Below, piece after piece: positions 1-64,000 of a stretch of 64,000 nt of DNA (position 1 is its first letter; the number at the start of each line of letters is the position of its first letter). A program made the position numbers and the translations under genes. This DNA comes from Hydractinia symbiolongicarpus (Eukaryota; Cnidaria; Hydrozoa; Anthoathecata; Hydractiniidae): assembly GCF_029227915.1 (NCBI RefSeq), contig NC_079885.1, positions 18,735,001-18,799,000 on the forward strand, in the 5' to 3' direction. The notes under the pieces are model-generated. The model searched no databases and was not told the DNA's origin. It was given only the letters and a program-made list of their open reading frames with translations.

Positions 1-245
1 TCCAAATGCGAAGAGTGAAGGCCGCAGACGGCAGGGGTTGAGCCAAGGGCCTTTCGGCCGTATCCCGCTCACAAGTTTTTTTTTTTTTTAGCAGAATAAT
101 ACATACGAGCTAATCAAAATCGGCTCGAGGAAAGAAATAAAGTTCAGAGACAACCAAAGGAGTCGAACTGCAGTAGAAACAAACTAGATGTAACGCAAGC
201 CACTAGTACGACGTATTGCCTACAGGGACCACACTCTCCGAGACA

Positions 246-290
246 GCGAACGCAACTTCCTAGTGATTCACGCGAACGCACTCAACTAGG
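246..290 (+). promoter_or_regulatory. Candidate distal element: 9 bp direct repeats plus inverted repeat (unit 1 example)
   Basis: GCGAACGCA occurs at 246-254 and again at 272-280, 26 bp apart. An inverted repeat CCTAGT (259-264) / ACTAGG (285-290) brackets the second copy with a 20-nt loop. The block lies about 160-205 bp upstream of the U5 5' end, roughly where animal snRNA genes carry a distal sequence element. I see no octamer or clear SPH/STAF site, so the regulatory role is inferred from position and repetition only. It recurs in every unit; position 283 is C in some units and G in others. Copy 16 (10272) and copy 75 (about 49705) have changes within the 9-mers. Confidence 0.35.
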
Positions 291-390
291 TGATGTAGAT
301 CAGAAAGGTGAAAGTCCTTGTGTCAAGTCTACACCTCACGATGCAGCACCTTTTAAGCGTCCTCTACGAACGGACACACTGGCAAGCGGC

Positions 391-406
391 ACACCACAAG
401 CAAAGG
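391..406 (+). promoter_or_regulatory. PSE-like proximal promoter element of U5 (unit 1 example)
   Basis: ACACCACAAGCAAAGG lies about 59 to 44 bp upstream of the U5 5' end. It resembles the animal proximal sequence element (ACC, then AA, then AAAG), which binds the SNAPc complex and directs Pol II to snRNA genes. The distance fits. There is no TATA box between it and the RNA, as expected for a Pol II rather than a Pol III snRNA gene. The motif is nearly invariant across the array; the only change I noticed is a G to T at its 3' end in copy 21. The match is to a loose consensus recalled from vertebrate genes, so the exact borders are uncertain. Confidence 0.5.
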
Positions 407-407
407 T

Positions 408-445
408 TAAGTCGGCTCGAAGGCACAACAGGTCGCGCCGACTTA
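408..445 (+). promoter_or_regulatory. 9 bp inverted repeat between PSE-like motif and U5 start (unit 1 example)
   Basis: TAAGTCGGC (408-416) and GCCGACTTA (437-445) are perfect inverted repeats with a 20-nt loop, ending a few bases before the U5 5' end. They could be paired protein-binding sites in the core promoter or simply a DNA palindrome. The repeat is broken by single changes in several units: copy 5 (3087), copy 33, copies 42 and 43 (AAGTCGACTC), copies 61, 64 and 72 (AAGCCGGC), copy 78 (GACTTGCGAC). Strict pairing is therefore not maintained throughout the array. Confidence 0.35.
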
Positions 446-448
446 CGA

Positions 449-570
449 CAACTCTGGGCTTTCTTCAGTTCACGCACAAATCTTTCGCCTTTTACTAAAG
501 ATTTCCGTGGAGAAGGCCAAAACGATGAGTATATAGACGATTTTTCTACTGTCTCGCTTCGGCGGGACGA
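449..570 (+). ncRNA. U5: U5 spliceosomal snRNA, copy 1
   Basis: U5 snRNA is the scaffold RNA of the U5 snRNP; its loop I contacts the 5' and 3' exon ends, and the RNA binds Prp8 and an Sm ring. Visible here: basal stem ACTC 451-454 with GAGT 527-530; lower stem GGCTTTCTTC 457-466 with GGAGAAGGCC 509-518; upper stem AAATCTTT 478-485 with AAAGATTT 497-504; canonical 11-nt loop I CGCCTTTTACT 486-496; Sm-type tract GATTTTTC 539-546; 3' hairpin GTCTCGC 551-557 with GCGGGAC 562-568 and a TTCG loop. The length of about 120 nt fits the family (human U5 is 116 nt). The 5' end at 449 is set by aligning CAACTCTGG to the conserved AUACUCUGG start; it could be off by 1-2 nt. The TATATA at 530-535 is inside the RNA and is not a promoter. 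This copy is the reference for the other entries. Confidence 0.97.
539..546 (+). other. Sm-type binding site of U5 (copy 1 example)
   Basis: GATTTTTC is a single-stranded U-tract between the U5 main stem and the 3' hairpin, where the heptameric Sm ring assembles. The usual consensus ends in G after the U run; here it ends in C, followed by TACT. The five-T tract is kept in every copy I compared; copy 87 changes the T just after the C. Confidence 0.75.
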
Positions 571-576
571 TCACTA

Positions 577-592
577 GTCTAAATGAAAAAAC
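577..592 (+). promoter_or_regulatory. 3'-box-like processing signal downstream of U5 (unit 1 example)
   Basis: GTCTAAATGAAAAAAC begins 9 nt after the 3' hairpin of U5. It resembles the animal snRNA 3' box (GTTT, short gap, AAA-rich), which directs Integrator-dependent 3' end formation of Pol II snRNA transcripts. Position and composition fit; the match to the consensus is approximate. Copy 81 has ACTCT in place of AGTCT just upstream. Confidence 0.5.
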
Positions 593-743
593 GTGCAGGA
601 GGCCATACGCGGGCCTATCTCTCATCTCGCTCACAGAGACTTGGTAAGCACGGTCCACTCAATGGCTTTCCAAATGCGAAGAGTGAAGGCCGCAGACGGC
701 AGGGGTTGAGCCAAGAGCCTTTCGGCCGTATCCCGCTCACAAG
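593..743 (+). other. GC-rich structured spacer between U5 and the T-run (unit 1-2 example), function unknown
   Basis: I do not recognise a gene here. Three hairpins can be drawn: AGGCC 600-604 with GGCCT 612-616; CGGTCCACTC 651-660 with GAGTG 681-685 and GGCCG 688-692 across an AA bulge; and TGAGC 707-711 with GCTCA 735-739 enclosing GGCC 716-719 / GGCC 724-727 (copy 2 unit has GGCC; unit 1 has A at 716). The last hairpin sits directly before a T-run, and ACTTGGTAAGC at 639-649 looks like a splice donor. A second small RNA is conceivable, but several sub-families carry changes that break the middle hairpin (positions 658 and 691) without compensation, and copies 42 and 43 lack half of the first hairpin. 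I see no tRNA, 5S, U6 or SRP RNA. Confidence 0.4.
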
Positions 744-758
744 TTTTTTTTTTTTTTT
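744..758 (+). repeat. Polymorphic T-run in the spacer (unit 1-2 example)
   Basis: A run of 15 T follows GCTCACAAG and precedes AGCAGAATAATAC. Across the array its length varies from about 12 to 17, and it explains most of the 666-671 bp unit length variation. Interruptions occur in some units: C in the units after copies 16, 17, 44, 46, 49 and 89; G after copies 18, 80, 81 and 82; A after copy 87. It could end a Pol III transcript, but it may be just a mononucleotide repeat. Confidence 0.8.
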
Positions 759-914
759 AGCAGAATAATACATACGAGCTAATCAAAATCGGCTCGAGGA
801 AAGAAATAAAGTTCAGAGACAACCAAAGGAGTCGAACTGCAGTAGAAACAAACTAGATGTAACGCAAGCCACTAGTACGACGTATTGCCTACAGGGACCA
901 CACTCTCCGAGACA
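759..914. other. AT-rich spacer without recognised element (unit 2 example)
   Basis: This stretch between the T-run and the candidate distal element contains one short inverted repeat (CGAGC/GCTCG near 775-797), single XhoI (CTCGAG) and PstI (CTGCAG) sites, and an AATAAA. I found no gene, tRNA or conserved motif on either strand. The same stretch occurs in every unit. Confidence 0.7.
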
Positions 915-1117
915 GCGAACGCAACTTCCTAGTGATTCACGCGAACGCACTCAACTAGGTGATGTAGATCAGAAAGGTGAAAGTCCTTGTGTCAAGTCTA
1001 CACCTCACGATGCAGCACCTTTTAAGCGTCCTCTACGAACGGACACACTGGCAAGCGGCACACCACAAGCAAAGGTTAAGTCGGCTCGAAGGCACAACAG
1101 GTCGCGCCGACTTACGA

Positions 1118-1239
1118 CAACTCTGGGCTTTCTTCAGTTCACGCACAAATCTTTCGCCTTTTACTAAAGATTTCCGTGGAGAAGGCCAAAACGATGAGTA
1201 TATAGACGATTTTTCTACTGTCTCGCTTCGGCGGGACGA
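1118..1239 (+). ncRNA. U5: U5 snRNA, copy 2
   Basis: RNA region identical to copy 1; spacers unremarkable. Confidence 0.96.
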
Positions 1240-1784
1240 TCACTAGTCTAAATGAAAAAACGTGCAGGAGGCCATACGCGGGCCTATCTCTCATCTCGCT
1301 CACAGAGACTTGGTAAGCACGGTCCACTCAATGGCTTTCCAAATGCGAAGAGTGAAGGCCGCAGACGGCAGGGGTTGAGCCAAGGGCCTTTCGGCCGTAT
1401 CCCGCTCACAAGTTTTTTTTTTTTTAGCAGAATAATACATACGAGCTAATCAAAATCGGCTCGAGGAAAGAAATAAAGTTCAGAGACAACCAAAGGAGTC
1501 GAACTGCAGTAGAAACAAACTAGATGTAACGCAAGCCACTAGTACGACGTATTGCCTACAGGGACCACACTCTCCGAGACAGCGAACGCAACTTCCTAGT
1601 GATTCACGCGAACGCACTCAACTAGGTGATGTAGATCAGAAAGGTGAAAGTCCTTGTGTCAAGTCTACACCTCACGATGCAGCACCTTTTAAGCGTCCTC
1701 TACGAACGGACACACTGGCAAGCGGCACACCACAAGCAAAGGTTAAGTCGGCTCGAAGGCACAACAGGTCGCGCCGACTTACGA

Positions 1785-1906
1785 CAACTCTGGGCTTTCT
1801 TCAGTTCACGCACAAATCTTTCGCCTTTTACTAAAGATTTCCGTGGAGAAGGCCAAAACGATGAGTATATAGACGATTTTTCTACTGTCTCGCTTCGGCG
1901 GGACGA
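1785..1906 (+). ncRNA. U5: U5 snRNA, copy 3
   Basis: Identical to copy 1 across the RNA. Confidence 0.96.
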
Positions 1907-2453
1907 TCACTAGTCTAAATGAAAAAACGTGCAGGAGGCCATACGCGGGCCTATCTCTCATCTCGCTCACAGAGACTTGGTAAGCACGGTCCACTCAATG
2001 GCTTTCCAAATGCGAAGAGTGAAGGCCGCAGACGGCAGGGGTTGAGCCAAGGGCCTTTCGGCCGTATCCCGCTCACAAGTTTTTTTTTTTTTTTAGCAGA
2101 ATAATACATACGAGCTAATCAAAATCGGCTCGAGGAAAGAAATAAAGTTCAGAGACAACCAAAGGAGTCGAACTGCAGTAGAAACAAACTAGATGTAACG
2201 CAAGCCACTAGTACGACGTATTGCCTACAGGGACCACACTCTCCGAGACAGCGAACGCAACTTCCTAGTGATTCACGCGAACGCACTCAACTAGGTGATG
2301 TAGATCAGAAAGGTGAAAGTCCTTGTGTCAAGTCTACACCTCACGATGCAGCACCTTTTAAGCGTCCTCTACGAACGGACACACTGGCAAGCGGCACACC
2401 ACAAGCAAAGGTTAAGTCGGCTCGAAGGCACAACAGGTCGCGCCGACTTACGA

Positions 2454-2575
2454 CAACTCTGGGCTTTCTTCAGTTCACGCACAAATCTTTCGCCTTTTAC
2501 TAAAGATTTCCGTGGAGAAGGCCAAAACGATGAGTATATAGACGATTTTTCTACTGTCTCGCTTCGGCGGGACGA
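2454..2575 (+). ncRNA. U5: U5 snRNA, copy 4
   Basis: Identical RNA; downstream spacer has CGCAGG for CGCGGG in the first hairpin loop. Confidence 0.96.
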
Positions 2576-3122
2576 TCACTAGTCTAAATGAAAAAACGTG
2601 CAGGAGGCCATACGCAGGCCTATCTCTCATCTCGCTCACAGAGACTTGGTAAGCACGGTCCACTCAATGGCTTTCCAAATGCGAAGAGTGAAGGCCGCAG
2701 ACGGCAGGGGTTGAGCCAAGGGCCTTTCGGCCGTATCCCGCTCACAAGTTTTTTTTTTTTTTTAGCAGAATAATACATACGAGCTAATCAAAATCGGCTC
2801 GAGGAAAGAAATAAAGTTCAGAGACAACCAAAGGAGTCGAACTGCAGTAGAAACAAACTAGATGTAACGCAAGCCACTAGTACGACGTATTGCCTACAGG
2901 GACCACACTCTCCGAGACAGCGAACGCAACTTCCTAGTGATTCACGCGAACGCACTCAACTAGGTGATGTAGATCAGAAAGGTGAAAGTCCTTGTGTCAA
3001 GTCTACACCTCACGATGCAGCACCTTTTAAGCGTCCTCTACGAACGGACACACTGGCAAGCGGCACACCACAAGCAAAGGTTAAGTAGGCTCGAAGGCAC
3101 AACAGGTCGCGCCGACTTACGA

Positions 3123-3244
3123 CAACTCTGGGCTTTCTTCAGTTCACGCACAAATCTTTCGCCTTTTACTAAAGATTTCCGTGGAGAAGGCCAAAACGAT
3201 GAGTATATAGACGATTTTTCTACTGTCTCGCTTCGGCGGGACGA
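3123..3244 (+). ncRNA. U5: U5 snRNA, copy 5
   Basis: Identical RNA; the promoter inverted repeat is broken by an A at 3087, and the T-run downstream is followed by AGCACAAT. Confidence 0.96.
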
Positions 3245-3789
3245 TCACTAGTCTAAATGAAAAAACGTGCAGGAGGCCATACGCGGGCCTATCTCTCATC
3301 TCGCTCACAGAGACTTGGTAAGCACGGTCCACTCAATGGCTTTCCAAATGCGAAGAGTGAAGGCCGCAGACGGCAGGGGTTGAGCCAAGGGCCTTTCGGC
3401 CGTATCCCGCTCACAAGTTTTTTTTTTTTTAGCACAATAATACATACGAGCTAATCAAAATCGGCTCGAGGAAAGAAATAAAGTTCAGAGACAACCAAAG
3501 GAGTCGAGCTGCAGTAGAAACAAACTAGATGTAACGCAAGCCACTAGTACGACGTATTGCCTACAGGGACCACACTCTCCGAGACAGCGAACGCAACTTC
3601 CTAGTGATTCACGCGAACGCACTCAACTAGGTGATGTAGATCAGAAAGGTGAAAGTCCTTGTGTCAAGTCTACACCTCACGATGCAGCACCTTTTAAGCG
3701 TCCTCTACGAACGGACACACTGGCAAGCGGCACACCACAAGCAAAGGTTAAGTCGGCTCGAAGGCACAACAGGTCGCGCCGACTTACGA

Positions 3790-3911
3790 CAACTCTGGGC
3801 TTTCTTCAATTCACGCACAAATCTTTCGCCTTTTACTAAAGATTTCCGTGGAGAAGGCCAAAACGATGAGTATATAGACGATTTTTCTACTGTCTCGCTT
3901 CGGCGGGACGA
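3790..3911 (+). ncRNA. U5: U5 snRNA, copy 6
   Basis: One change: G to A at 3809 in the internal loop above the lower stem. Fold otherwise intact. Confidence 0.95.
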
Positions 3912-4456
3912 TCACTAGTCTAAATGAAAAAACGTGCAGGAGGCCATACGCGGGCCTATCTCTCATCTCGCTCACAGAGACTTGGTAAGCACGGTCCACT
4001 CAATGGCTTTCCAAATGCGAAGAGTGAAGGCCGCAGACGGCAGGGGTTGAGCCAAGGGCCTTTCGGCCGTATCCCGCTCACAAGTTTTTTTTTTTTTAGC
4101 AGAATAATACATACGAGCTAATCAAAATCGGCTCGAGGAAAGAAATAAAGTTCAGAGAAAACCAAAGGAGTCGAACTGCAGTAGAAACAAACTAGATGTA
4201 ACGCAAGCCACTAGTACGACGTATTGCCTACAGGGACCACACTCTCCGAGACAGCGAACGCAACTTCCTAGTGATTCACGCGAACGCACTCAACTAGGTG
4301 ATGTAGATCAGAAAGATGAAAGTCCTTGTGTCAAGTCTACACCTCACGATGCAGCACCTTTTAAGCGTCCTCTACGAACGGACACACTGGCAAGCGGCAC
4401 ACCACAAGCAAAGGTTAAGTCGGCTCGAAGGCACAACAGGTCGCGCCGACTTACGA

Positions 4457-4578
4457 CAACTCTGGGCTTTCTTCAGTTCACGCACAAAACTTTCGCCTTT
4501 TACTAAAGATTTCCGTGGAGAAGGCCAAAACGATGAGTATATAGACGATTTTTCTACTGTCTCGCTTCGGCGGGACGA
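4457..4578 (+). ncRNA. U5: U5 snRNA, copy 7
   Basis: T to A at 4489 breaks one pair of the upper stem below loop I. Upstream, GAAAGGTG reads GAAAGATG. Confidence 0.93.
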
Positions 4579-5124: not shown

Positions 5125-5246
5125 CAACTCTGGGCTTTCTTCAGTTCACGCACAAATCTTTCGCCTTTTACTAAAGATTTCCGTGGAGAAGGCCAAAACG
5201 ATGAGTATATAGACGATTTTTCTACTGTCTCGCTTCGGCGGGACGA
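5125..5246 (+). ncRNA. U5: U5 snRNA, copy 8
   Basis: Identical RNA and consensus spacers. Confidence 0.96.
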
Positions 5247-5792: not shown

Positions 5793-5914
5793 CAACTCTG
5801 GGCTTTCTTCAGTTCACGCACAAATCTTTCGCCTTTTACTAAAGATTTCCGTGGAGAAGGCCAAAACGATGAGTATATAGACGATTTTTCTACTGTCTCG
5901 CTTCGGCGGGACGA
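5793..5914 (+). ncRNA. U5: U5 snRNA, copy 9
   Basis: Identical RNA; the upstream distal block carries the G form (ACTGAACTAGG). Confidence 0.96.
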
Positions 5915-19280: not shown

Positions 19281-19827
19281 TCACTAGTCTAAATGAAAAA
19301 ACGTGCAGGAGGCCATACGCGGGCCTATCTCTCATCTTGCTCACAGAGACTTGGTAAGCACGGTCCACTCAATGGCTTTCCAAATGCGAAGAGTGAAGGC
19401 CGCAGACGGCAGGGGTTGAGCCAAGGGCCTTTCGGCCGTATCCCGCTCACAAGTTTTTTTTTTTTTTTAGCAGAATAATACATACGAGCTAATCAAAATC
19501 GGCTCGAGGAAAGAAATAAAGTTCAGAGACAACCAAAGGAGTCGAACTGCAGTAGAAACAAACTAGATGTAACGCAAGCCACTAGTACGACGTATTGCCT
19601 ACAGGGACCACACTCTCCGAGACAGCGAACGCAACTTCCTAGTGATTCACGCGAACGCACTCAACTAGGTGATGTAGATCAGAAAGGTGAAAGTCCTTGT
19701 GTCAAGTCTACACCTCACGATGCAGCACCTTTTAAGCGTCCTCTACGAACGGACACACTGGCAAGCGGCACACCACAAGCAAAGGTTAAGTCGGCTCGAA
19801 GGCACAACAGATCGCGCCGACTTACGA

Positions 19828-19949
19828 CAACTCTGGGCTTTCTTCAGTTCACGCACAAATCTTTCGCCTTTTACTAAAGATTTCCGTGGAGAAGGCCAAA
19901 ACGATGAGTATATAGACGATTTTTCTACTGTCTCGCTTCGGCGGGACGA
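19828..19949 (+). ncRNA. U5: U5 snRNA, copy 30
   Basis: Identical RNA; ACAGATCGCG in the promoter inverted repeat loop, downstream GGCCCTTTCGG and ATCTCGCTC. First unit of the duplicated three-unit block. Confidence 0.96.
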
Positions 19950-20495
19950 TCACTAGTCTAAATGAAAAAACGTGCAGGAGGCCATACGCGGGCCTATCTC
20001 TCATCTCGCTCACAGAGACTTGGTAAGCACGGTCCACTCAATGGCTTTCCAAATGCGAAGAGTGAAGGCCGCAGACGGCAGGGGTTGAGCCAAGGCCCTT
20101 TCGGCCGTATCTCGCTCACAAGTTTTTTTTTTTTTTAGCAGAATAATACATACGAGCTAATCAAAATCGGCTCGAGGAAAGAAATAAAGTTCAGAGACAA
20201 CCAAAGGAGTTGAACTGCAGTAGAAACAAACTAGATGTAACGCAAGCCACTAGTACGACGTATTGCCTACAGGGACCACACTCTCCGAGACAGCGAACGC
20301 AACTTCCTAGTGATTCACGCGAACGCACTCAACTAGGTGATGTAGATCAGAAAGGTGAAAGTCCTTGTGTCAAGTCTACACCTCACGATGCAGCACCTTT
20401 TAAGCGTCCTCTACGAACGGACACACTGGCAAGCGGCACACCACAAGCAAAGGTTAAGTCGGCTCGAAGGCACAACAGGTCGCGCCGACTTACGA

Positions 20496-20617
20496 CAACT
20501 CTGGGCTTTCTTCAGTTCACGCACAAATCTTTCGCCTTTTACTAAAGATTTCCGTGGAGAAGGCCAAAACGATGAGTATATAGACGATTTTTCTACCGTC
20601 TCGCTTCGGCGGGACGA
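20496..20617 (+). ncRNA. U5: U5 snRNA, copy 31
   Basis: CTACCG before the 3' hairpin. Upstream GAGTTGAAC; downstream CACAGTCC and ACGACAGG. Paired with copy 34. Confidence 0.95.
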
Positions 20618-21165
20618 TCACTAGTCTAAATGAAAAAACGTGCAGGAGGCCATACGCGGGCCTATCTCTCATCTCGCTCACAGAGACTTGGTAAGCACAG
20701 TCCACTCAATGGCTTTCCAAATGCGAAGAGTGAAGGCCGCAGACGACAGGGGTTGAGCCAAGGGCCTTTCGGCCGTATCCCGCTCACAAGTTTTTTTTTT
20801 TTTTTTAGCAGAATAATACATACGAGCTAATCAAAATCGGCTCGAGGAAAGAAATAAAGTTCAGAGACAACCAAAGGAGTCGAACTGCAGTAGAAACAAA
20901 CTAGATGTAACGCAAGCCACTAGTACGACGTATTGCCTACAGGGACCACACTCTCCGAGACAGCGAACGCAACTTCCTAGTGATTCACGCGAACGCACTC
21001 AACTAGGTGATGTAGATCAGAAAGGTGAAAGTCCTTGTGTCAAGTCTACACCTCACGATGCAGCACCTTTTAAGCGTCCTCTACGAACGGACACACTGGC
21101 AAGCGGCACACCACAAGCAAAGGTTAAGTCGGCTCGAAGGCACAACAGGTCGCGCCGACTTACGA

Positions 21166-21287
21166 CAACTCTGGGCTTTCTTCAGTTCACGCACAAATCT
21201 TTCGCCTTTTACTAAAGATTTCCGTGGAGAAGGCCAAAACGATGAGTATATAGACGATTTTTCTACTGTCTCGCTTCGGCGGGACGA
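21166..21287 (+). ncRNA. U5: U5 snRNA, copy 32
   Basis: Identical RNA; downstream GAGCAAAGG and GGCCATTCGG. Paired with copy 35. Confidence 0.96.
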
Positions 21288-21834
21288 TCACTAGTCTAAA
21301 TGAAAAAACGTGCAGGAGGCCATACGCGGGCCTATCTCTCATCTCGCTCACAGAGACTTGGTAAGCACGGTCCACTCAATGGCTTTCCAAATGCGAAGAG
21401 TGAAGGCCGCAGACGGCAGGGGTTGAGCAAAGGGCCATTCGGCCGTATCCCGCTCACAAGTTTTTTTTTTTTTTTAGCAGAATAATACATACGAGCTAAT
21501 CAAAATCGGCTCGAGGAAAGAAATAAAGTTCAGAGACAACCAAAGGAGTCGAACTGCAGTAGAAACAAACTAGATGTAACGCAAGCCACTAGTACGACGT
21601 ATTGCCTACAGGGACCACACTCTCCGAGACAGCGAACGCAACTTCCTAGTGATTCACGCGAACGCACTCAACTAGGTAATGTAGATCAGAAAGGTGAAAG
21701 TCCTTGTGTCAAGTCTACACCTCACGATGCAGCACCTTTTAAGCGTCCTCTACGAACGGACACACTGGCAAGCGGCACACCACAAGCAAAGGTTAAGTCT
21801 GCTCGAAGGCACAACAGATCGCGCCGACTTACGA

Positions 21835-21956
21835 CAACTCTGGGCTTTCTTCAGTTCACGCACAAATCTTTCGCCTTTTACTAAAGATTTCCGTGGAGAA
21901 GGCCAAAACGATGAGTATATAGACGATTTTTCTACTGTCTCGCTTCGGCGGGACGA
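21835..21956 (+). ncRNA. U5: U5 snRNA, copy 33
   Basis: Identical RNA; shares the markers of copy 30 plus private AGGTAATG and AAGTCTGC in the promoter. Confidence 0.96.
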
Positions 21957-22502
21957 TCACTAGTCTAAATGAAAAAACGTGCAGGAGGCCATACGCGGGC
22001 CTATCTCTCATCTCGCTCACAGAGACTTGGTAAGCACGGTCCACTCAATGGCTTTCCAAATGCGAAGAGTGAAGGCCGCAGACGGCAGGGGTTGAGCCAA
22101 GGCCCTTTCGGCCGTATCTCGCTCACAAGTTTTTTTTTTTTTTAGCAGAATAATACATACGAGCTAATCAAAATCGGCTCGAGGAAAGAAATAAAGTTCA
22201 GAGACAACCAAAGGAGTTGAACTGCAGTAGAAACAAACTAGATGTAACGCAAGCCACTAGTACGACGTATTGCCTACAGGGACCACACTCTCCGAGACAG
22301 CGAACGCAACTTCCTAGTGATTCACGCGAACGCACTCAACTAGGTGATGTAGATCAGAAAGGTGAAAGTCCTTGTGTCAAATCTACACCTCACGATGCAG
22401 CACCTTTTAAGCGTCCTCTACGAACGGACACACTGGCAAGCGGCACACCACAAGCAAAGGTTAAGTCGGCTCGAAGGCACAACAGGTCGCGCCGACTTAC
22501 GA

Positions 22503-22624
22503 CAACTCTGGGCTTTCTTCAGTTCACGCACAAATCTTTCGCCTTTTACTAAAGATTTCCGTGGAGAAGGCCAAAACGATGAGTATATAGACGATTTTTC
22601 TACCGTCTCGCTTCGGCGGGACGA
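22503..22624 (+). ncRNA. U5: U5 snRNA, copy 34
   Basis: CTACCG before the 3' hairpin; shares all spacer markers of copy 31, plus CAAATCTAC upstream. Confidence 0.95.
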
Positions 22625-23172
22625 TCACTAGTCTAAATGAAAAAACGTGCAGGAGGCCATACGCGGGCCTATCTCTCATCTCGCTCACAGAGACTTGGTA
22701 AGCACAGTCCACTCAATGGCTTTCCAAATGCGAAGAGTGAAGGCCGCAGACGACAGGGGTTGAGCCAAGGGCCTTTCGGCCGTATCCCGCTCACAAGTTT
22801 TTTTTTTTTTTTTAGCAGAATAATACATACGAGCTAATCAAAATCGGCTCGAGGAAAGAAATAAAGTTCAGAGACAACCAAAGGAGTCGAACTGCAGTAG
22901 AAACAAACTAGATGTAACGCAAGCCACTAGTACGACGTATTGCCTACAGGGACCACACTCTCCGAGACAGCGAACGCAACTTCCTAGTGATTCACGCGAA
23001 CGCACTCAACTAGGTGATGTAGATCAGAAAGGTGAAAGTCCTTGTGTCAAGTCTACACCTCACGATGCAGCACCTTTTAAGCGTCCTCTACGAACGGACA
23101 CACTGGCAAGCGGCACACCACAAGCAAAGGTTAAGTCGGCTCGAAGGCACAACAGGTCGCGCCGACTTACGA

Positions 23173-23294
23173 CAACTCTGGGCTTTCTTCAGTTCACGCA
23201 CAAATCTTTCGCCTTTTACTAAAGATTTCCGTGGAGAAGGCCAAAACGATGAGTATATAGACGATTTTTCTACTGTCTCGCTTCGGCGGGACGA
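23173..23294 (+). ncRNA. U5: U5 snRNA, copy 35
   Basis: Identical RNA; downstream GGCCATTCGG as in copy 32. Confidence 0.96.
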
Positions 23295-23842
23295 TCACTA
23301 GTCTAAATGAAAAAACGTGCAGGAGGCCATACGCGGGCCTATCTCTCATCTCGCTCACAGAGACTTGGTAAGCACGGTCCACTCAATGGCTTTCCAAATG
23401 CGAAGAGTGAAGGCCGCAGACGGCAGGGGTTGAGCCAAGGGCCATTCGGCCGTATCCCGCTCACAAGTTTTTTTTTTTTTTTTAGCAGAATAATACATAC
23501 GAGCTAATCAAAATCGGCTCGAGGAAAGAAATAAAGTTCAGAGACAACCAAAGGAGTCGAACTGCAGTAGAAACAAACTAGATGTAACGCAAGCCACTAG
23601 TACGACGTATTGCCTACAGGGACCACACTCTCCGAGACAGCGAACGCAACTTCCTAGTGATTCACGCGAACGCACTCAACTAGGTGATGTAGATCAGAAA
23701 GGTGAAAGTCCTTGTGTCAAGTCTACACCTCACGATGCAGCACCTTTTAAGCGTCCTCTACGAACGGACACACTGGCAAGCGGCACACCACAAGCAAAGG
23801 TTAAGTCGGCTCGAAGGCACAACAGGTCGCGCCGACTTACGA

Positions 23843-27307: not shown

Positions 27308-27853
27308 TCACTAGTCTAAATGAAAAAACGTGCAGGAGGCCATACTCGGGCCTATCTCTCATCTCGCTCACAGAGACTTGGTAAGCACGGTCCACTCAAT
27401 GGCTTTCCAAATGCGAAGAGTGAAGGCCGCAGACGGCAGGGGTTGAGCCAAGGGCCTTTCGGCCGTATCCCGCTCACAATTTTTTTTTTTTTTTAGCAGA
27501 ATAATACATACGAGCTAATCAAAATCGGCTCGAGGAAAGAAATAAAGTTCAGAGACAACCAAAGGAGTCGAACTGCAGTAGAAACAAACTAGATGTAACG
27601 CAAGCAACTAGTACGACGTATTGCCTACAGGGACCACACTCTCCGAGACAGCGAACGCAACTTCCTAGTGATTCACGCGAACGCACTCAACTAGGTGATG
27701 TAGATCAGAAAGGTGAAAGTCCTTGTGTCAAGTCTACACCTCACGATGCAGCACCTTTTAAGCGTCCTCTACGAACGGACACACTGGCAAGCGGCACACC
27801 ACAAGCAAAGGTTAAGTCGACTCGAAGGCACAACAGGTCGCGCCGACTTACGA

Positions 27854-27975
27854 CAACTCTGGGCTTTCTTCAGTTCACGCACAAATCTTTCGCCTTTTAC
27901 TAAAGATTTCCGTGGAGAAGGCCAAAAGGATGAGTATATAGACGATTTTTCTACTGTCTCGCTTCGGCGAGACGA
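27854..27975 (+). ncRNA. U5: U5 snRNA, copy 42
   Basis: C to G at 27928, and G to A in the 3' hairpin (GCGAGAC), which turns a T-G wobble into T-A and so strengthens the stem. A 14 bp deletion follows at about 28015. Confidence 0.94.
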
Positions 27976-28507
27976 TCACTAGTCTAAATGAAAAAACGTG
28001 CAGGAGGCCATACGCTCTCGCTCACAGAGACTTGGTAAGCACGGTCCACTCAATGGCTTTCCAAATGCGAAGAGTGAAGGCCGCAGACGGCAGGGGTTGA
28101 GCCAAGGGCCTTTCGGCCGTATCCCGCTCACAATTTTTTTTTTTTTTTAGCAGAATAATACATACGAGCTAATCAAAATCGGCTCGAGGAAAGAAATAAA
28201 GTTCAGAGACAACCAAAGGAGTCGAACTGCAGTAGAAACAAACTAGATGTAACGCAAGCAACTAGTACGACGTATTGCCTACAGGGACCACACTCTCCGA
28301 GACAGCGAACGCAACTTCCTAGTGATTCACGCGAACGCACTCAACTAGGTGATGTAGATCAGAAAGGTGAAAGTCCTTGTGTCAAGTCTACACCTCACGA
28401 TGCAGCACCTTTTAAGCGTCCTCTACGAACGGACACACTGGCAAGCGGCACACCACAAGCAAAGGTTAAGTCGACTCGAAGGCACAACAGGTCGCGCCGA
28501 CTTACGA

Positions 28508-28629
28508 CAACTCTGGGCTTTCTTCAGTTCACGCACAAATCTTTCGCCTTTTACTAAAGATTTCCGTGGAGAAGGCCAAAACGATGAGTATATAGACGAT
28601 TTTTCTACTGTCTCGCTTCGGCGAGACGA
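28508..28629 (+). ncRNA. U5: U5 snRNA, copy 43
   Basis: Same strengthened 3' hairpin (GCGAGAC), same 14 bp downstream deletion and same upstream markers (AAGCAACTA, AAGTCGACTC) as copy 42. Confidence 0.95.
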
Positions 28630-29162
28630 TCACTAGTCTAAATGAAAAAACGTGCAGGAGGCCATACGCTCTCGCTCACAGAGACTTGGTAAGCACGGTC
28701 CACTCAATGGCTTTCCAAATGCGAAGAGTGAAGGCCGCAGACGGCAGGGGTTGAGCCAAGGGCCTTTCGGCCGTATCCCGCTCACAAGTTTTTTTTTTTT
28801 TTTAGCAGAATAATACATACGAGCTAATCAAAATCGGCTCGAGGAAAGAAATAAAGTTCAGAGACAACCAAAGGAGTCGAACTGCAGTAGAAACAAACTA
28901 GATGTAACGCAAGCCACTAGTACGACGTATTGCCTACAGGGACCACACTCTCCGAGACAGCGAACGCAACTTCCTAGTGATTCACGCGAACGCACTCAAC
29001 TAGGTGATGTAGATCAGAAAGGTGAAAGTCCTTGTGTCAAGTCTACACCTCACGATGCAGCACCTTTTAAGCGTCCTCTACGAACGGTCACACTGGCAAG
29101 CGGCACACCACAAGCAAAGGTTAAGTCGGCTCGAAGGCACAACAGGTCGCGCCGACTTACGA

Positions 29163-44533: not shown

Positions 44534-44655
44534 CAACTCTGGGCTTTCTTCAGTTCACGCACAAATCTTTCGACTTTTACTAAAGATTTCCGTGGAGAAG
44601 GCCAAAACGATGAGTATATAGACGATTTTTCTACTGTCTCGCTTCGGCGGGACGA
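44534..44655 (+). ncRNA. U5: U5 snRNA, copy 67 (loop I variant)
   Basis: C to A at 44573 changes loop I from CGCCTTTTACT to CGACTTTTACT, in the most conserved part of U5. Stems and Sm tract are intact. It may be a pseudogene or a variant RNA. Upstream CTAGTTCGACG, GCATTTTCC and GCACTACAGG. Confidence 0.88.
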
Positions 44656-56014: not shown

Positions 56015-56562
56015 TCACTAGTCTAAATGAAAAAACGTGCAGGAGGCCATACGCCGCCCTATCTCTCATCTCGCTCACAGAGACTTGGTAAGCACGGTCC
56101 ACTCAATGGCTTTCCAAATGCGAAGAGTGAAGGCCGCAGACGGCAGGGGTTGAGCCAAGGGCCTTTCGGCCGTATCCCGCTCACAAGTTTTTTTTTTTTT
56201 TTTAGCAGAATAATACATACGAGCTAATCAAAATCGGCTCGAGGAAAGAAATAAAGTTCAGAGACAACCAAAGGAGTCGAACTGCAGTAGAAACAAACTA
56301 GATGTAACGCAAGCCACTAGTACGACGTATTGCCTACAGGGACCACACTCTCCGAGACAGCGAACGCAACTTCCTAGTGATTCACGCGAACGCACTCAAC
56401 TAGGTGATGTAGATCAGAAAGGTGAAAGTCCTTGTGTCAAGTCTACACCTCACGATGCAGCACCTCTTAAGCGTCCTCTACGAACGGACACACTGGCAAG
56501 CGGCACACCACAAGCAAAGGTTAAGTCGGCTCGAAGGCACAACAGGTCGCGCCGACTTACGA

Positions 56563-56684
56563 CAACTCTGGGCTTTCTTCAGTTCACGCACAAATCTTTC
56601 GCCTTTTACTAAAGATTTCCGTGGAGAAGGCCAAAACGATGAGTATATAGACGATTTTTCTACTGTCTCGCTTCGGCGGGACGA
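56563..56684 (+). ncRNA. U5: U5 snRNA, copy 85
   Basis: Identical RNA; upstream CACCTCTTAAG; downstream ATGCTAAG, GGCGACAG and GGCGGGGG. Confidence 0.96.
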
Positions 56685-57231
56685 TCACTAGTCTAAATGA
56701 AAAAACGTGCAGGAGGCCATACGCGGGCCTATCTCTCATCTCGCTCACAGAGACTTGGTAAGCACGGTCCACTCAATGGCTTTCCAAATGCTAAGAGTGA
56801 AGGCGACAGACGGCGGGGGTTGAGCCAAGGGCCTTTCGGCCGTATCCCGCTCACAAGTTTTTTTTTTTTTTTAGCAGAATAATACATACGAGCTAATCAA
56901 AATCGGCTCGAGGAAAGAAATAAAGTTCAGAGACAACCAAAGGAGTCGAACTGCAGTAGAAACAAACTAGATGTAACGCAAGCCACTAGTACGACGTATT
57001 GCCTACAGGGACCACACTCTCCGAGACAGCGAACGCAACTTCCTAGTGATTCACGCGAACGCACTGAACTAGGTGATGTAGATCAGAAAGGTGAAAGTCC
57101 TTGTGTCAAGTCTACACCTCACGATGCAGCACCTTTCAAGCGTCCTCTACGAACGGACACACTGGCAAGCGGCACACCACAAGCAAAGGTTAAGTCGGCT
57201 CGAAGGCACAACAGGTCGCGCCGACTTACGA

Positions 57232-57353
57232 CAACTCTGGGCTTTCTTCAGTTCACGCACAAATCTTTCGCCTTTTACTAAAGATTTCCGTGGAGAAGGC
57301 CAAAACGATGAGTAAATAGACGATTTTTCTACTGTCTCGCTTCGGCGGGACGA
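57232..57353 (+). ncRNA. U5: U5 snRNA, copy 86
   Basis: T to A at 57315 (GAGTAAATAG) before the Sm tract; upstream ACCTTTCAAG. Confidence 0.95.
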
Positions 57354-57899
57354 TCACTAGTCTAAATGAAAAAACGTGCAGGAGGCCATACGCGGGCCTA
57401 TCTCTCATCTCGCTCACAGAGACTTGGTAAGCACGGTCCACTCAATGGCTTTCCAAATGCGAAGAGTGAAGGCCGCAGACGGCAGGGGTTGAGCCAAGGG
57501 CCTTTCGGCCGTATCCCGCTCACAAGTTTTTTTTTTTTTTAGCAGAATAATACATACGAGCTAATCAAAATCGGCTCGAGGAAAGAAATAAAGTTCAGAG
57601 ACAACCAAAGGAGTCGAACTGCAGTAGAAACAAACTAGATGTAACGCAAGCCACTAGTACGACGTATTGCCTACAGGGACCACACTCTCCGAGACAGCGA
57701 ACGCAACTTCCTAGTGATTCACGCGAACGCACTGAACTAGGTGATGTAGATCAGAAAGGTGAAAGTCCTTGTGTCAAGTCTACACCTCACGATGCAGCAC
57801 CTTTTAAGCGTCCTCTACGAACGGACACACTGGCAAGCGGCACACCACAAGCAAAGGTTAAGTCGGCTCGAAGGCACAACAGGTCGCGCCGACTTACGA

Positions 57900-58021
57900 C
57901 AACTCTGGGCTTTCTTCAGTTCACGCACAAATCTTTCGCCTTTTACTAAAGATTTCCGTGGAGAAGACCAAAACGATGAGTATATAGACGATTTTTCCAC
58001 TGTCTCGCTTCGGCGGGACGA
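57900..58021 (+). ncRNA. U5: U5 snRNA, copy 87
   Basis: G to A at 57967 breaks a lower-stem pair; T to C at 57998 just after the Sm tract. Downstream T-run preceded by AAGG and interrupted by A. Confidence 0.92.
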
Positions 58022-58568
58022 TCACTAGTCTAAATGAAAAAACGTGCAGGAGGCCATACGCGGGCCTATCTCTCATCTCGCTCACAGAGACTTGGTAAGC
58101 ACGGTCCACTCAATGGCTTTCCAAATGCGAAGAGTGAAGGCGGCAGACGGCAGGGGTTGAGCCAAGGGCCTTTCGGCCGTATCCCGCTCACAAGGTTTTT
58201 TTTTATTTTAGCAGAATAATACATACGAGCTAATCAAAATCGGCTCGAGGAAAGATATAAAGTTCAGAGACAACCAAAGGAGTCGAACTGCAGTAGAAAC
58301 AAACTAGATGTAACGCAAGCCACTAGTGCGACGTATTGCCTACAGGGACCACACTCTCCGAGACAGCGAACGCAACTTCCTAGTGATTCACGCGAACGCA
58401 CTCAACTAGGTGATGTAGATCAGAAAGGTGAAAGTCCTTGTGTCAAGTCTACACCTCACGAAGCAGCACCTTTTAAGCGTCCTCTACGAACGGACACACT
58501 GGCAAGCGGCACACCACAAGCAAAGGTTAAGTCGGCTCGAAGGCACAACAGGTCACGCCGACTTACGA

Positions 58569-58690
58569 CAACTCTGGGCTTTCTTCAGTTCACGCACAAA
58601 TCTTTCGCCTTTTACTAAAGATTTCCGTGGAGAAGGCCAAAACGATGAGTATATAGACGATTTTTCTACTGTCTCGCTTCGGCGGGACGA
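58569..58690 (+). ncRNA. U5: U5 snRNA, copy 88
   Basis: Identical RNA; upstream AAAGATATAAAG, CTAGTGCG, ACGAAGCAGC and GGTCACGCC; downstream CCATGCGCG. Confidence 0.96.
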
Positions 58691-59238
58691 TCACTAGTCT
58701 AAATGAAAAAACGTGCAGGAGGCCATGCGCGGGCCTATCTCTCATCTCGCTCACAGAGACTTGGTAAGCACGGTCCACTCAATGGCTTTCCAAATGCGAA
58801 GAGTGAAGGCCGCAGACGGCAGGGGTTGAGCCAAGGGCCTTTCGGCCGTATCCCGCTCACAAGTTTTTTTTTTTTTTTTAGCAGAATAATACATACGAGC
58901 TAATCAAAATCGGCTCGAGGAAAGAAATAAAGTTCAGAGACAACCAAAGGAGTCGAACTGCAGTAGAAACAAACTAGATGTAACGCAAGCCACTAGTACG
59001 ACGTATTGCCTACAGGGACCACACTCTCCGAGACAGCGAACGCAACTTCCTAGTGATTCACGCGAACGCACTGAACTAGGTGATGTAGATCAGAAAGGTG
59101 AAAGTCCTTGTGTCAAGTCTACACCTCACGATGCAGCACCTTTTAAGCGTCCTCTACGAACGGACACACTGGCAAGCGGCACACCACAAGCAAAGGTTAA
59201 GTCGGCTCGAAGGCACAACAGGTCGCGCCGACTTACGA

Positions 59239-59360
59239 CAACTCTGGGCTTTCTTCAGTTCACGCACAAATCTTTCGCCTTTTACTAAAGATTTCCGTGG
59301 AGAAGGCCAAAACGATGAGTATATAGACGATTTTTCTACTGTCTCGCTTCGGCGGGACGA
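59239..59360 (+). ncRNA. U5: U5 snRNA, copy 89
   Basis: Identical RNA; downstream CTATCGCTC and a C-interrupted T-run. Confidence 0.96.
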
Positions 59361-59906
59361 TCACTAGTCTAAATGAAAAAACGTGCAGGAGGCCATACGC
59401 GGGCCTATCGCTCATCTCGCTCACAGAGACTTGGTAAGCACGGTCCACTCAATGGCTTTCCAAATGCGAAGAGTGAAGGCCGCAGACGGCAGGGGTTGAG
59501 CCAAGGGCCTTTCGGCCGTATCCCGCTCACAAGTTTTTCTTTTTTTTAGCAGAATAATACATACGAGCTAATCAAAATCGGCTCGAGGAAAGAAATAAAG
59601 TTCAGAGACAACCAAAGGAGTCGAACTGCAGTAGAAACAAACTAGATGTAACGCAAGCCACTAGTACGACGTATTGCCTACAGGGACCACACTCTCCGAG
59701 ACAGCGAACGCAACTTCCTAGTGATTCACGCGAACGCACTGAACTAGGTGATGTAGATCAGAAAGGTGAAAGTCCTTGTGTCAAGTCTACACCTCACGAT
59801 GCAGCACCTTTTAAGCGTCCTCTACGAACGGACACACTGGCAAGCGGCACACCACAAGCAAAGGTTAAGTCGGCTCGAAGGCACAACAGGTCGCGCCGAC
59901 TTACGA

Positions 59907-60028
59907 CAACTCTGGGCTTTCTTCAGTTCACGCACAAATCTTTCGCATTTTACTAAAGATTTCCGTGGAGAAGGCCAAAACGATGAGTATATAGACGATT
60001 TTTCTACTGTCTCGCTTCGGCGGGACGA
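59907..60028 (+). ncRNA. U5: U5 snRNA, copy 90 (loop I variant)
   Basis: C to A at 59947 makes loop I CGCATTTTACT. The rest of the RNA is consensus. Downstream GTGCAGAAGG and GAAAGCGGCAG. Confidence 0.88.
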
Positions 60029-60572
60029 TCACTAGTCTAAATGAAAAAACGTGCAGAAGGCCATACGCGGGCCTATCTCTCATCTCGCTCACAGAGACTT
60101 GGTAAGCACGGTCCACTCAATGGCTTTCCAAATGCGAAGAGTGAAAGCGGCAGACGGCAGGGGTTGAGCCAAGGGCCTTTCGGCCGTATCCCGCTCACAA
60201 GTTTTTTTTTTTTAGCAGAATAATACATACGAGCTAATCAAAATCGGCTCGAGGAAAGAAATAAAGTTCAGAGACAACCAAAGGAGTCGAACTGCAGTAG
60301 AAACAAACTAGATGTAACGCAAGCCACTAGTACGACGTATTGCCTACAGGGACCACACTCTCCGAGACAGCGAACGCAACTTCCTAGTGATTCACGCGAA
60401 CGCACTGAACTAGGTGATGTAGATCAGAAAGGTGAAAGTCCTTGTGTCAAGTCTACACCTCACGATGCAGCACCTTTTAAGCGTCCTCTACGAACGGACA
60501 CACTGGCAAGCGGCACACCACAAGCAAAGGTTAAGTCGGCTCGAAGGCACAACAGGTCGCGCCGACTTACGA

Positions 60573-60694
60573 CAACTCTGGGCTTTCTTCAGTTCACGCA
60601 CAAATCTTTCGCCTTTTACTAAAGATTTCCGTGGAGAAGGCCAAAAGAATGAGTATATAGACGATTTTTCTACTGTCTTGCTTCGGCGGGACGA
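60573..60694 (+). ncRNA. U5: U5 snRNA, copy 91 (diverged)
   Basis: CAAAACGATG reads CAAAAGAATG, and C to T at 60679 weakens the 3' hairpin to T-G. Downstream spacer has several more changes (AAAAAAAAGG, ATGCCAAG, GAAGTCCG, CAAGGTTT). Confidence 0.9.
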
Positions 60695-61241
60695 TCACTA
60701 GTCTAAATGAAAAAAAAGGCAGGAGGCCATACGCGGGCCTATCTCTCATCTCGCTCACAGAGACTTGGTAAGCACGGTCCACTCAATGGCTTTCCAAATG
60801 CCAAGAGTGAAGTCCGCAGACGGCAGGGGTTGAGCCAAGGGCCTTTCGGCCGTATCCCGCTCACAAGGTTTTTTTTTTTTTTAGCAGAATAATACATACG
60901 AGCTAATCAAAATCGGCTCGAGGAAAGAAATAAAGTTCAGAGACAACCAAAGGAGTCGAACTGCAGTAGAAACAAACTAGATGTAACGCAAGCCACTAGT
61001 ACGACGTATTGCCTACAGGGACCACACTCTCCGAGACAGCGAACGCAACTTCCTAGTGATTCACGCGAACGCACTGAACTAGGTGATGTAGATCAGAAAG
61101 GTGAAAGTCCTTGTGTCAAGTCTACACCTCACGATGCAGCACCTTTTAAGCGTCCTCTACGAACGGACACACTGGCAAGCGGCACACCACAAGCAAAGGT
61201 TAAGTCGGCTCGAAGGCACAACAGGTCGCGCCGACTTACGA

Positions 61242-61363
61242 CAACTCTGGGCTTTCTTCAGTTCACGCACAAATCTTTCGCCTTTTACTAAAGATTTCCG
61301 TGGAGAAGGCCAAAACGATGAGTATATAGACGATTTTTCTACTGTCTCGCTTCGGCGGGACGA
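61242..61363 (+). ncRNA. U5: U5 snRNA, copy 92
   Basis: Identical RNA; downstream GGCAGTGGTTG. Confidence 0.96.
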
Positions 61364-61909
61364 TCACTAGTCTAAATGAAAAAACGTGCAGGAGGCCATA
61401 CGCGGGCCTATCTCTCATCTCGCTCACAGAGACTTGGTAAGCACGGTCCACTCAATGGCTTTCCAAATGCGAAGAGTGAAGGCCGCAGACGGCAGTGGTT
61501 GAGCCAAGGGCCTTTCGGCCGTATCCCGCTCACAAGTTTTTTTTTTTTTTAGCAGAATAATACATACGAGCTAATCAAAATCGGCTCGAGGAAAGAAATA
61601 AAGTTCAGAGACAACCAAAGGAGTCGAACTGCAGTAGAAACAAACTAGATGTAACGCAAGCCACTAGTACGACGTATTGCCTACAGGGACCACACTCTCC
61701 GAGACAGCGAACGCAACTTCCTAGTGATTCACGCGAACGCACTGAACTAGGTGATGTAGATCAGAAAGGTGAAAGTCCTTGTGTCAAGTCTACACCTCAC
61801 AATGCAGCACCTTTTAAGCGTCCTCTACGAACGGACACACTGGCAAGCGGCACACCACAAGCAAAGGTTAAGTCGGCTCGAAGGCACAACAGGTCGCGCC
61901 GACTTACGA

Positions 61910-62031
61910 CAACTCTGGGCTTTCTTCAGTTCACGCACAAATCTTTCGCCTTTTACTAAAGATTTCCGTGGAGAAGGCCAAAACGATGAGTATATAGACG
62001 ATTTTTCTACTGTCTCGCTTCGGCGGGACGA
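61910..62031 (+). ncRNA. U5: U5 snRNA, copy 93
   Basis: Identical RNA; upstream CTCACAATG, downstream CATACGGGGG. Confidence 0.96.
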
Positions 62032-62577
62032 TCACTAGTCTAAATGAAAAAACGTGCAGGAGGCCATACGGGGGCCTATCTCTCATCTCGCTCACAGAGA
62101 CTTGGTAAGCACGGTCCACTCAATGGCTTTCCAAATGCGAAGAGTGAAGGCCGCAGACGGCAGGGGTTGAGCCAAGGGCCTTTCGGCCGTATCCCGCTCA
62201 CAAGTTTTTTTTTTTTTTAGCAGAATAATACATACGAGCTAATCAAAATCGGCTCGAGGAAAGAAATAAAGTTCAGAGACAACCAAAGGAGTCGAACTGT
62301 AGTAGAAACAAACTAGATGTAACGCAAGCCACTAGTACGACGTATTGCCTACAGGGACCACACTCTCCGAGACAGCGAACGCAACTTCCTAGTGATTCAC
62401 GCGAACGCACTGAACTAGGTGATGTAGATCAGAAAGGTGAAAGTCCTTGTGTCAAGTCTACACCTCACGATGCAGCACCTTTTAAGCGTCCTCTACGAAT
62501 GGACACACTGGCAAGCGGCACACCACAAGCAAAGGTTAAGTCGGCTCGAAGGCACAACAGGTCGCGCCGACTTACGA

Positions 62578-62699
62578 CAACTCTGGGCTTTCTTCAGTTC
62601 ACGCACAAATCTTTCGCCTTTTACTAAAGATTTTCCTGGAGAAGGCCAAAACGATGAGTATATAGACGATTTTTCTACTGTCTCGCTTCGGCGGGACGA
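62578..62699 (+). ncRNA. U5: U5 snRNA, copy 94
   Basis: TTTCCGTGG reads TTTTCCTGG (changes at 62634 and 62636) in the internal loop below the upper stem, a conserved U5 segment. PstI site lost upstream (ACTGTAG). Confidence 0.9.
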
Positions 62700-63244
62700 T
62701 CACTAGTCTAAATGAAAAAACGTGCGGGAGGCCATACGCGGGCCTATCTCTCATCTCGCTCACAGAGACTTGGTAAGCACGGTCCACTCAATGGCTTTCC
62801 AAATGCGAAGAGTGAAGGCCGCAGACGGCAGGGGTTGAGCCAAGGGCCTTTCGGCCGTATCCCGCTCACAACTTTTTTTTTTTTTAGCAGAATAATACAT
62901 ACGAGCTAATCAAAATCGGCTCGAGGAAAGAAATAAAGTTCAGAGACAACCAAAGGAGTCGAACTGCAGTAGAAACAAACTAGATGTAACGCAAGCCACT
63001 AGTACGACGTATTGCCTACAGGGACCACACTCTCCGAGACAGCGAACGCAACTTCCTAGTGATTCACGCGAACGCACTCAACTAGGTGATGTAGATCAGA
63101 AAGGTGAAAGTCCTTGTGTCAAGTCTACACCTCACGATGCAGCACCTTTTAAGCGTCCTCTACGAACGGACACACTGGCAAGCGGCACACCACAAGCAAA
63201 GGTTAAGTCGGCTCGAAGGCACAACAGGTCGCGCCGACTTACGA

Positions 63245-63366
63245 CAACTCTGGGCTTTCTTCAGTTCACGCACAAATCTTTCGCCTATTACTAAAGATTT
63301 CCGTGGAGAAGGCCAAAGCGATGAGTATATAGACGATTTTTCTACTGTCTCGCTTCGGCGGGACGA
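63245..63366 (+). ncRNA. U5: U5 snRNA, copy 95 (loop I variant)
   Basis: T to A at 63287 changes the loop I U-tract (CGCCTATTACT), the part that contacts exons. A second change, A to G at 63318, gives CAAAGCGATG. Confidence 0.88.
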
Positions 63367-63913
63367 TCACTAGTCTAAATGAAAAAACGTGCAGGAGGCC
63401 ATACGCGGGCCTATCTCTCATCTCGCTCACAGAGACTTGGTAAGCACGGTCCACTCAATGGCTTTCCAAATGCGAAGAGTGAAGGCCGCAGACGGCAGGG
63501 GTTGAGCCAAGGGCCTTTCGGCCGTATCCCGCTCACAAGTTTTTTTTTTTTTTTAGCAGAATAATACATACGAGCTAATCAAAATCGGCTCGAGGAAAGA
63601 AATAAAGTTCAGAGACAACCAAAGGAGTCGAACTGCAGTAGAAACAAACTAGATGTAACGCAAGCCACTAGTACGACGTATTGCCTACAGGGACCACACT
63701 CTCCGAGACAGCGAACGCAACTTCCTAGTGATTCACGCGAACGCACTGAACTAGGTGATGTAGATCAGAAAGGTGAAAGTCCTTGTGTCAAGTCTACACC
63801 TCACGATGCAGCACCTTTTAAGCGTCCTCTACGAACGGACACACTGGCAAGCGGCACACCACAAGCAAAGGTTAAGTCGGCTCGAAGGCACAACAGGTCG
63901 CGCCGACTTACGA

Positions 63914-64000
63914 CAACTCTGGGCTTTCTTCAGTTCACGCACAAATCTTTCGCCTTTTACTAAAGATTTCCGTGGAGAAGGCCAAAACGATGAGTATATA
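63914..64000 (+). ncRNA. U5: U5 snRNA, copy 96, cut by window end
   Basis: The 5' 87 nt, through loop I, both main stems and the basal stem to GAGTATATA, match copy 1. The Sm tract and 3' hairpin lie beyond the window. Confidence 0.95.

Follow-up and report, generated by a model that had tools for sequence, protein, structure and literature searches.

The 64,000-nucleotide stretch of DNA analyzed here (the window) is, with a probability of roughly 0.8, a functional single-gene tandem array of eukaryotic U5 genes under concerted evolution. U5 is a small RNA needed for splicing, and its loop I helps to align exons. A search of both strands of the window (cmscan, Rfam 15) returned 96 U5 matches to RF00020, all on the forward strand and with scores from 70 to 86.8 bits, where the gathering threshold applied is 40. 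Ninety-five matches were full length (model positions 1 to 117), and one was truncated at base 64000, where the window stops. The 95 spacings between U5 genes were 668 (34 cases), 669 (31), 667 (12), 670 (10), and 666 (5), with one each of 671, 655, and 654, the last two being the shortest; the consensus unit was 668 bp. The original prediction, made from the letters of the window, had forecast 95 full matches and one partial match at 668-bp spacing in a real U5 array with no visible end, and the search bore out both statements: both array ends are open, with no edge within 1..64000.

1..64000, forward strand: head-to-tail tandem array of ~95.8 units of 668 bp, one U5 gene each (RF00020 matches and spacings)

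PstI and XhoI sites each occurred 95 times in the window, nearly always one unit apart. Mean pairwise identity of the units was 99.14% (first 95 units; substitutions only, T tract excluded). Tandem Repeats Finder returned 0 rows for the window, the likely reason being its period limit of 500. Apart from U5, the Rfam scan of the window had no family at the gathering threshold, and none was found at E ≤ 10 in positions 1 to 1500; a tRNA search of the window, with the program on its bacterial setting, found none. Open reading frames in the unit were considered as genes and rejected, being taken as chance frames. Exact U5 core patterns had no match in the viral contig or genome contig collections, and bases 1 to 2100 gave no phage match and one 27-base plasmid match (E = 0.6), taken as chance.

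The U5 gene and its flanking signals

The U5 gene of unit 1, a consensus copy, was used as the representative. The features that bear on its integrity, together with the three loop I mutants and the candidate flanking signals, are as follows.

449..569, forward strand: U5 snRNA gene of unit 1 (85.4 bits to RF00020; fold)
486..496, forward strand: loop I CGCCTTTTACT of unit 1 (U5 positions 38 to 48)
540..546, forward strand: Sm-type tract ATTTTTC of unit 1, before the 3' hairpin
551..568, forward strand: 3' hairpin of the unit 1 U5 RNA (fold)
44573..44573, forward strand: loop I change C40A of unit 67
59947..59947, forward strand: loop I change C41A of unit 90
63287..63287, forward strand: loop I change T43A of unit 95
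395..406, forward strand: candidate PSE-like promoter element, starting 54 bases before U5 (fit to the HNQM block)
577..592, forward strand: possible 3'-box-like stretch after the gene (by eye)

The unit 1 RNA folded with the stems of U5 (z = −2.62), and 2 of 200 shuffles were as good. The consensus U5 sequence is common to 67 of the 95 complete copies, and none of its 32 stem pairs is broken, stem 1 and the 3' hairpin included (the 32 pairs are those of the centroid fold minus a lone pair inside loop I). The 11-nucleotide loop I, CGCCUUUUACU, was unchanged in 93 of 96 units, with one substitution each in units 67, 90, and 95. Besides these three mutants, each of 10 complete units had one broken stem pair, which brings to 13 of 95 the complete units altered in loop I or in a stem. 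The ATTTTTC tract was identical in all 95 complete units; Sm-type tracts of the U5 family bind Sm proteins, and this tract is a candidate site. The view that every unit is complete and canonical held for the Sm tract and was too strong for loop I and for the stems. The complete copies comprise 26 distinct U5 sequences, and one further variant of U5, T102C, was present in seven units between units 21 and 34.

Animal snRNA promoters contain a PSE, a conserved element about 50 to 60 bases upstream of the gene. The candidate at 395..406 fits the back-translated HNQM block at 10 of 12 positions, a score also reached at one other place in the unit, and some relatives keep the HNQM block at a similar distance from U5. 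Three substitutions were found in the 25 sites from −60 to −36. Downstream of the gene, the stretch at 577..592 resembles the 3'-box consensus by eye and is a possible signal. Each 668-bp unit would probably be its own transcription unit, with the promoter in the spacer just upstream.

Sharing of variants among units

Rare variants recurred mostly 1 to 5 units apart, often in blocks, which include units 30-32/33-35, 53-55/57-59, and 64-67/70-73. Sharing of rare variants exceeded that in shuffled unit order at shifts of 2 (13 pairs versus 2.26), 3 (10 versus 2.18), 4 (13 versus 2.17), and 6 units (12 versus 2.19), pair counts that 0 of 2,000 shuffles reached; at shifts of 7 and 9, where 115 and 110 of 2,000 shuffles did so, sharing could not be clearly told from chance. 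Units 42 and 43 share a 14-bp spacer deletion after U5 as well as three rare variants.

19528..21534, forward strand: units 30 to 32, source or sister of units 33 to 35 (8 rare-variant matches in common at shift 3)
21535..23542, forward strand: units 33 to 35, apparent tandem duplicate of units 30 to 32
27554..28862, forward strand: units 42 and 43, adjacent duplicate

It is the rare-variant test that points to local spread. Mean inter-unit distance (5.16 for units one apart, 4.86 for three, 5.97 for 60, and 4.87 for 80) is only slightly smaller between close units and would by itself be poor support. The patterned sub-families noticed at the outset fit concerted evolution, as near-neighbor variant sharing and block repeats indicate. 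We infer that unequal exchange duplicates and deletes blocks of about 1 to 6 units, adding and losing copies, and that the same process would hold the units at about 99% identity.

If gene conversion were instead the main homogenizing process of a functional array, that reading would differ from this one only in process, and we consider it unlikely. The four-gamete test was failed by 41 of 903 variant pairs, so units must also undergo internal exchange or conversion, or else mutate recurrently. Two units lying 23 to 68 units apart share each of four variants (−140 G>A, 75 C>G, 156 C>T, and 180 C>T), as conversion allows, though recurrent mutation would do likewise. Against conversion as the main process, 21 of the 25 variants found in two units lay within 5 units of each other, and neighboring units often matched together at one shift, as block duplication predicts.

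Variation in U5, the spacer, and a relative's array

The U5 gene varied as much as the DNA around it. Thirty distinct substitutions were found in the 121 sites of U5 and 122 in 525 spacer sites (P = 0.76), a U5/spacer ratio of per-site variation of 1.07 (95% confidence interval, 0.69 to 1.60); this comparison leaves out 9 of 161 substitutions, those in the poly-T tract. Loop I was not spared, with 3 changes observed and 2.7 expected, and the lack of any Sm tract change (0 observed versus 1.7 expected) was not significant. Single copies appear to be no more protected from mutation than the spacer. The likely cause is that any one of about a hundred copies contributes little to the U5 pool, so that its U5 mutations would accumulate at about the spacer rate. 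Selection would act mainly on which copies spread, on the pool more than on each copy, and would thereby keep the consensus U5 intact over longer times, as one comparison with a relative suggests. Selection on spread predicts fewer shared variants inside U5; variants shared between units made up 5 of 30 in U5 versus 38 of 122 in the spacer, a shortage that was not significant (P = 0.17).

The relative was found with one open reading frame of the unit, used only as a handle for other U5 loci in a protein collection. Among 97 clusters examined, 17 were assigned to a 105,163-base ENA contig, which seems to hold another long U5 array. Compared as translated frames rather than as DNA, the window and the relative's P0001 agreed at 29 of 36 residues in the U5-coded part and at 6 of 35 in the upstream part, at the best of three offsets. 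The array of the P0001 cluster resembles the window in its U5-coded frame and differs from it upstream, and several of its copies are changed within U5. The units of the window, with 99.14% of bases alike, are far closer to one another than to the upstream part of P0001. Five of the 17 frames of the 105-kb contig lacked the U5 signature even when up to 3 changes were allowed, a fraction drawn from representatives of 90% clusters, among which odd copies are over-represented; one of the five, P0057, continues across U5 in a different frame.

A U5-derived satellite making no RNA would likewise be expected to vary equally in gene and spacer. This is a unit that once contained a U5 gene and now spreads as a repeat; U5 is then a silent passenger, and the working genes lie elsewhere. 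The altered loop I and stems in 13 complete copies and the decayed copies in the relative's array are in keeping with such a satellite. We nevertheless regard it as rather improbable: every stem pair of the consensus is intact and 67 copies equal that consensus, U5 is much better kept than the upstream DNA in the comparison with P0001, and a possible promoter block lies at a similar distance in the window and the relative, which is a weak point in the same direction. An assembly artefact, in which a short array was drawn out or the reads of several alleles were laid end to end, is very improbable: there are six groups of identical units and very little variation at the left end (1.0 differences per unit across units 1 to 12), but 91 or 87 of the 96 units differ, depending on how the units are cut, private variants occur throughout the array and become more frequent rightward (Spearman 0.28, P = 0.006), block duplications are of several sizes, and a U5 array is seemingly present in another assembly too.

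Within the preferred reading of a functional array under concerted evolution, we tentatively suggest a stronger version, which may well prove wrong: no single copy is visibly constrained, loop I included, and U5 is preserved solely by the array as a whole, which comprises some hundred genes or more. If this version is true, mutants that would be dominant in a genome with five U5 genes are present here at a dilution of about 1%, block-wise unequal exchange removes or spreads them, and an essential core of the spliceosome is kept at the array level. An array of the same sort, in a more decayed state, seems to exist in a related lineage.

Comparison with known snRNA gene arrangements

The window represents a known kind of arrangement that is unusually long for U5. 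The human RNU2 (U2 snRNA) array has 5 to 82 copies of a 6.1-kb unit and at least 50 alleles (PMC4132748); like the window, it repeats a single snRNA gene over a long tandem stretch, but the gene is U2 rather than U5 and the unit is about nine times longer. Human U5 has five functional genes (PMC13083260). Linked U2-U5 tandem units are described for the fish Plectorhinchus mediterraneus and also Ancistrus, with a U5 diversity of 0.009, near that of one spacer (0.010) and below that of the other (0.031) (PMC3464664; PMC10532334). There, too, U5 lies within tandem units and has a diversity close to one spacer's; however, the fish unit is shared with U2, whereas no other RNA family reached the Rfam threshold in the window. 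Euglena gracilis also has multicopy U5 genes, but there a U5 gene follows a U3 gene in convergent orientation, with twelve arrangements in all (PMC2784804), while U5 is alone in the unit of the window. Dinoflagellates, known for tandem gene arrays, were considered as a possible source of the window alongside animals and other protists.

The schistosome work, in the part available, mentions no U5 array (PMC2770079), and among the titles and abstracts found by a literature search, none describes a pure U5 array of such length. Calling the array very large is thus fair against the few U5 arrangements in the accessible parts of the literature, but the array is probably not unique because of the second array that seems to lie on the ENA contig.

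A human neurodevelopmental disorder results from new variants that cluster in loop I of RNU5B-1, one of the five functional human U5 genes (PMC13083260). The three loop I mutants, standing beside intact copies among 96, offer a natural test of copy-number shielding. Past block duplications can also be read from the array, which makes it useful for measuring the growth and shrinkage of gene arrays.

A long array of U5 genes

The Rfam U5 model (RF00020) gave 96 matches in the window, all on the plus strand, of which 95 are complete and one is cut by the window end, which agrees with the original prediction of 95 full matches and one partial match at 668-bp spacing. The spacing is 666 to 671 bp, save two shorter values (654 and 655 bp) consistent with a 14-bp deletion common to units 42 and 43 (units are numbered 1 to 96 along the window). 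All spacings correspond to one unit, and therefore the array contains no insertion. No other RNA family reached the Rfam threshold in the window, none was found at E values up to 10 in positions 1 to 1500, and a tRNA search of the window (bacterial setting) found no tRNA genes.

In the 668-bp consensus unit, U5 takes up 121 bp and the spacer 547 bp, the latter including a T tract of variable length. The consensus U5 folds into a 5' stem, a long stem with loop I, and a 3' hairpin (z = −2.62; 2 of 200 shuffles were equally good). This sequence is carried by 67 of the 95 complete copies, among which there are 26 distinct U5 sequences in total, and all 95 have ATTTTTC as the Sm-type tract. The expectation that every unit is canonical did not hold: loop I is altered in 3 of the 95 copies, and a stem pair is broken in 10 others.

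The human RNU2 array is described as likewise long and devoted to a single snRNA, with 5 to 82 copies of a 6.1-kb unit (PMC4132748). U5 is also reported in tandem in fishes, but linked to U2 (PMC3464664; PMC10532334). U1, U2, U5, and U6 of grasshoppers have been classed as tandem multigene families (PMC7754599), tandem linkage of snRNA genes and 5S rDNA is reported for the coral Acropora pruinosa (PMC8167085), and quantitative PCR on nine lepidopteran species plus one caddisfly gave 2 to 31 U1 genes and 1 to 56 U2 genes (PMC8190105). No pure U5 array of such length was found in the titles and abstracts searched, and we file the present array as a new, long case of an already known array type.

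Variation and turnover within the array

Outside the T tract, 152 distinct substitutions were counted, 30 in the 121 sites of U5 and 122 in 525 spacer sites. The U5/spacer rate ratio was 1.07 (95% interval, 0.69 to 1.60); therefore, a reduction in U5 by more than about one third is unlikely, while a weaker one is still possible. Changes numbered 3 in loop I (2.7 expected) and 0 in the Sm tract (1.7 expected). Shared variants were somewhat rarer in U5 (5/30) than in the spacer (38/122), a difference that was not significant (P = 0.17). Single U5 copies are thus under no visible constraint. CpG is not depleted (observed/expected, 1.12), and transitions were 1.8-fold more frequent per base at CpG bases (23 in 88; 0.261) than at other C/G bases (34; 0.144).

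Sharing of rare variants, defined as those carried by 2 to 8 units, was compared with 2,000 random unit orders. Such variants tend to reappear within a few units: nearest gaps were 1 unit in 10 cases, 2 in 19, 3 in 22, 4 in 12, 5 in 5, and longer in 11. The observed number of sharing pairs was reached by none of the random orders at shifts 2, 3, 4, and 6, by one at shift 5 and one at shift 8, by 7 at shift 1, and by 8 at shift 10; for shifts 7 and 9, the corresponding figures were 115 and 110. Matching blocks, which are what multi-unit tandem duplication through unequal exchange leaves, were as follows.

Block matches within the array, with rare-variant matches at one shift (runs overlap partly and are not independent events)
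Units 30-32 with units 33-35: 8 matches
Units 45-46 with units 50-51: 3 matches
Units 53-55 with units 57-59: 5 matches
Units 59-62 with units 62-65: 9 matches
Units 64-67 with units 70-73: 7 matches

Units 1 to 12 carry on average 1.0 differences from the consensus and units 61 to 96 about 4, an increase along the array (Spearman, 0.49). Private variants peak at 2.83 per unit in units 85 to 96 (about positions 56263 to 64000) compared with 0.42 to 1.75 in each of the seven remaining twelve-unit bins; either a nearby right-hand edge or slower turnover there might explain this pattern. A common C>G variant at position −165 from U5 occurs in 41 units, comprising 35 of units 55 to 96 and, in the left part, only units 9, 10, 13, 14, 17, and 19, as if two array types had met.

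U5 in related sequences

A chance reading frame over U5 (positions 308 to 574) served as a handle for relatives in a protein collection clustered at 90% identity. The window frame gave 16 matches, followed by 67 from cluster P0001 and 43 from cluster P0015, for 97 different clusters altogether, all of ENA origin; 87 of these carry the U5 signature with at most three changes. P0001 represents 121 sequences on 13 contigs (their split among the contigs is not given). For 17 of the 97 clusters the longest contig measures 105,163 bases; equal size is taken to mean the same contig, which seems to carry another long array of U5 genes. A third array is suggested by P0015, whose 24 sequences come from a single short contig (8,943 bases); its unit is probably just a few hundred bases long.

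In translation, the window and P0001 are identical at 29 of 36 residues of the U5-coded part versus 6 of 35 upstream, at the best of three offsets. This one translated comparison would point to long-term constraint on the U5 pool. The within-array and between-species results together fit a gene array whose single copies can mutate almost freely while the pool stays functional.

Among the 17 frames of the 105,163-base contig, the signature is exact in 4, has one to three changes in 8, and is absent in 5, counts that are not rates, as 90% cluster representatives over-represent odd copies. Reading the letters by eye, the signature is lost in P0032 through further changes, in P0044 because the frame shifts within U5, and in P0049 and P0051 where the frames break off; P0057 lacks it solely because U5 is read in another frame. 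The U5 frames of P0049, P0051, and P0053 stop at one point after NLSR and continue into similar other sequence, as though a shortened U5 copy had gained a different 3' neighbor and then been multiplied itself.

Candidate elements upstream of U5

Among the 97 frames, 31 have HNQ 18 residues ahead of ALGFL, and many of these 31 belong to a single array. At −54 the window has CACAAGCAAAGG, which agrees with the relatives' block at 10 of 12 positions, a score tied at one other place in the unit; the block is a weak candidate for the promoter element. Immediately upstream of the U5 start, the expected place of a core promoter, an 8-bp inverted repeat, AAGTCGGC / GCCGACTT (positions 409 to 416 and 437 to 444 in unit 1), was noted by eye; it is also present in the consensus unit.
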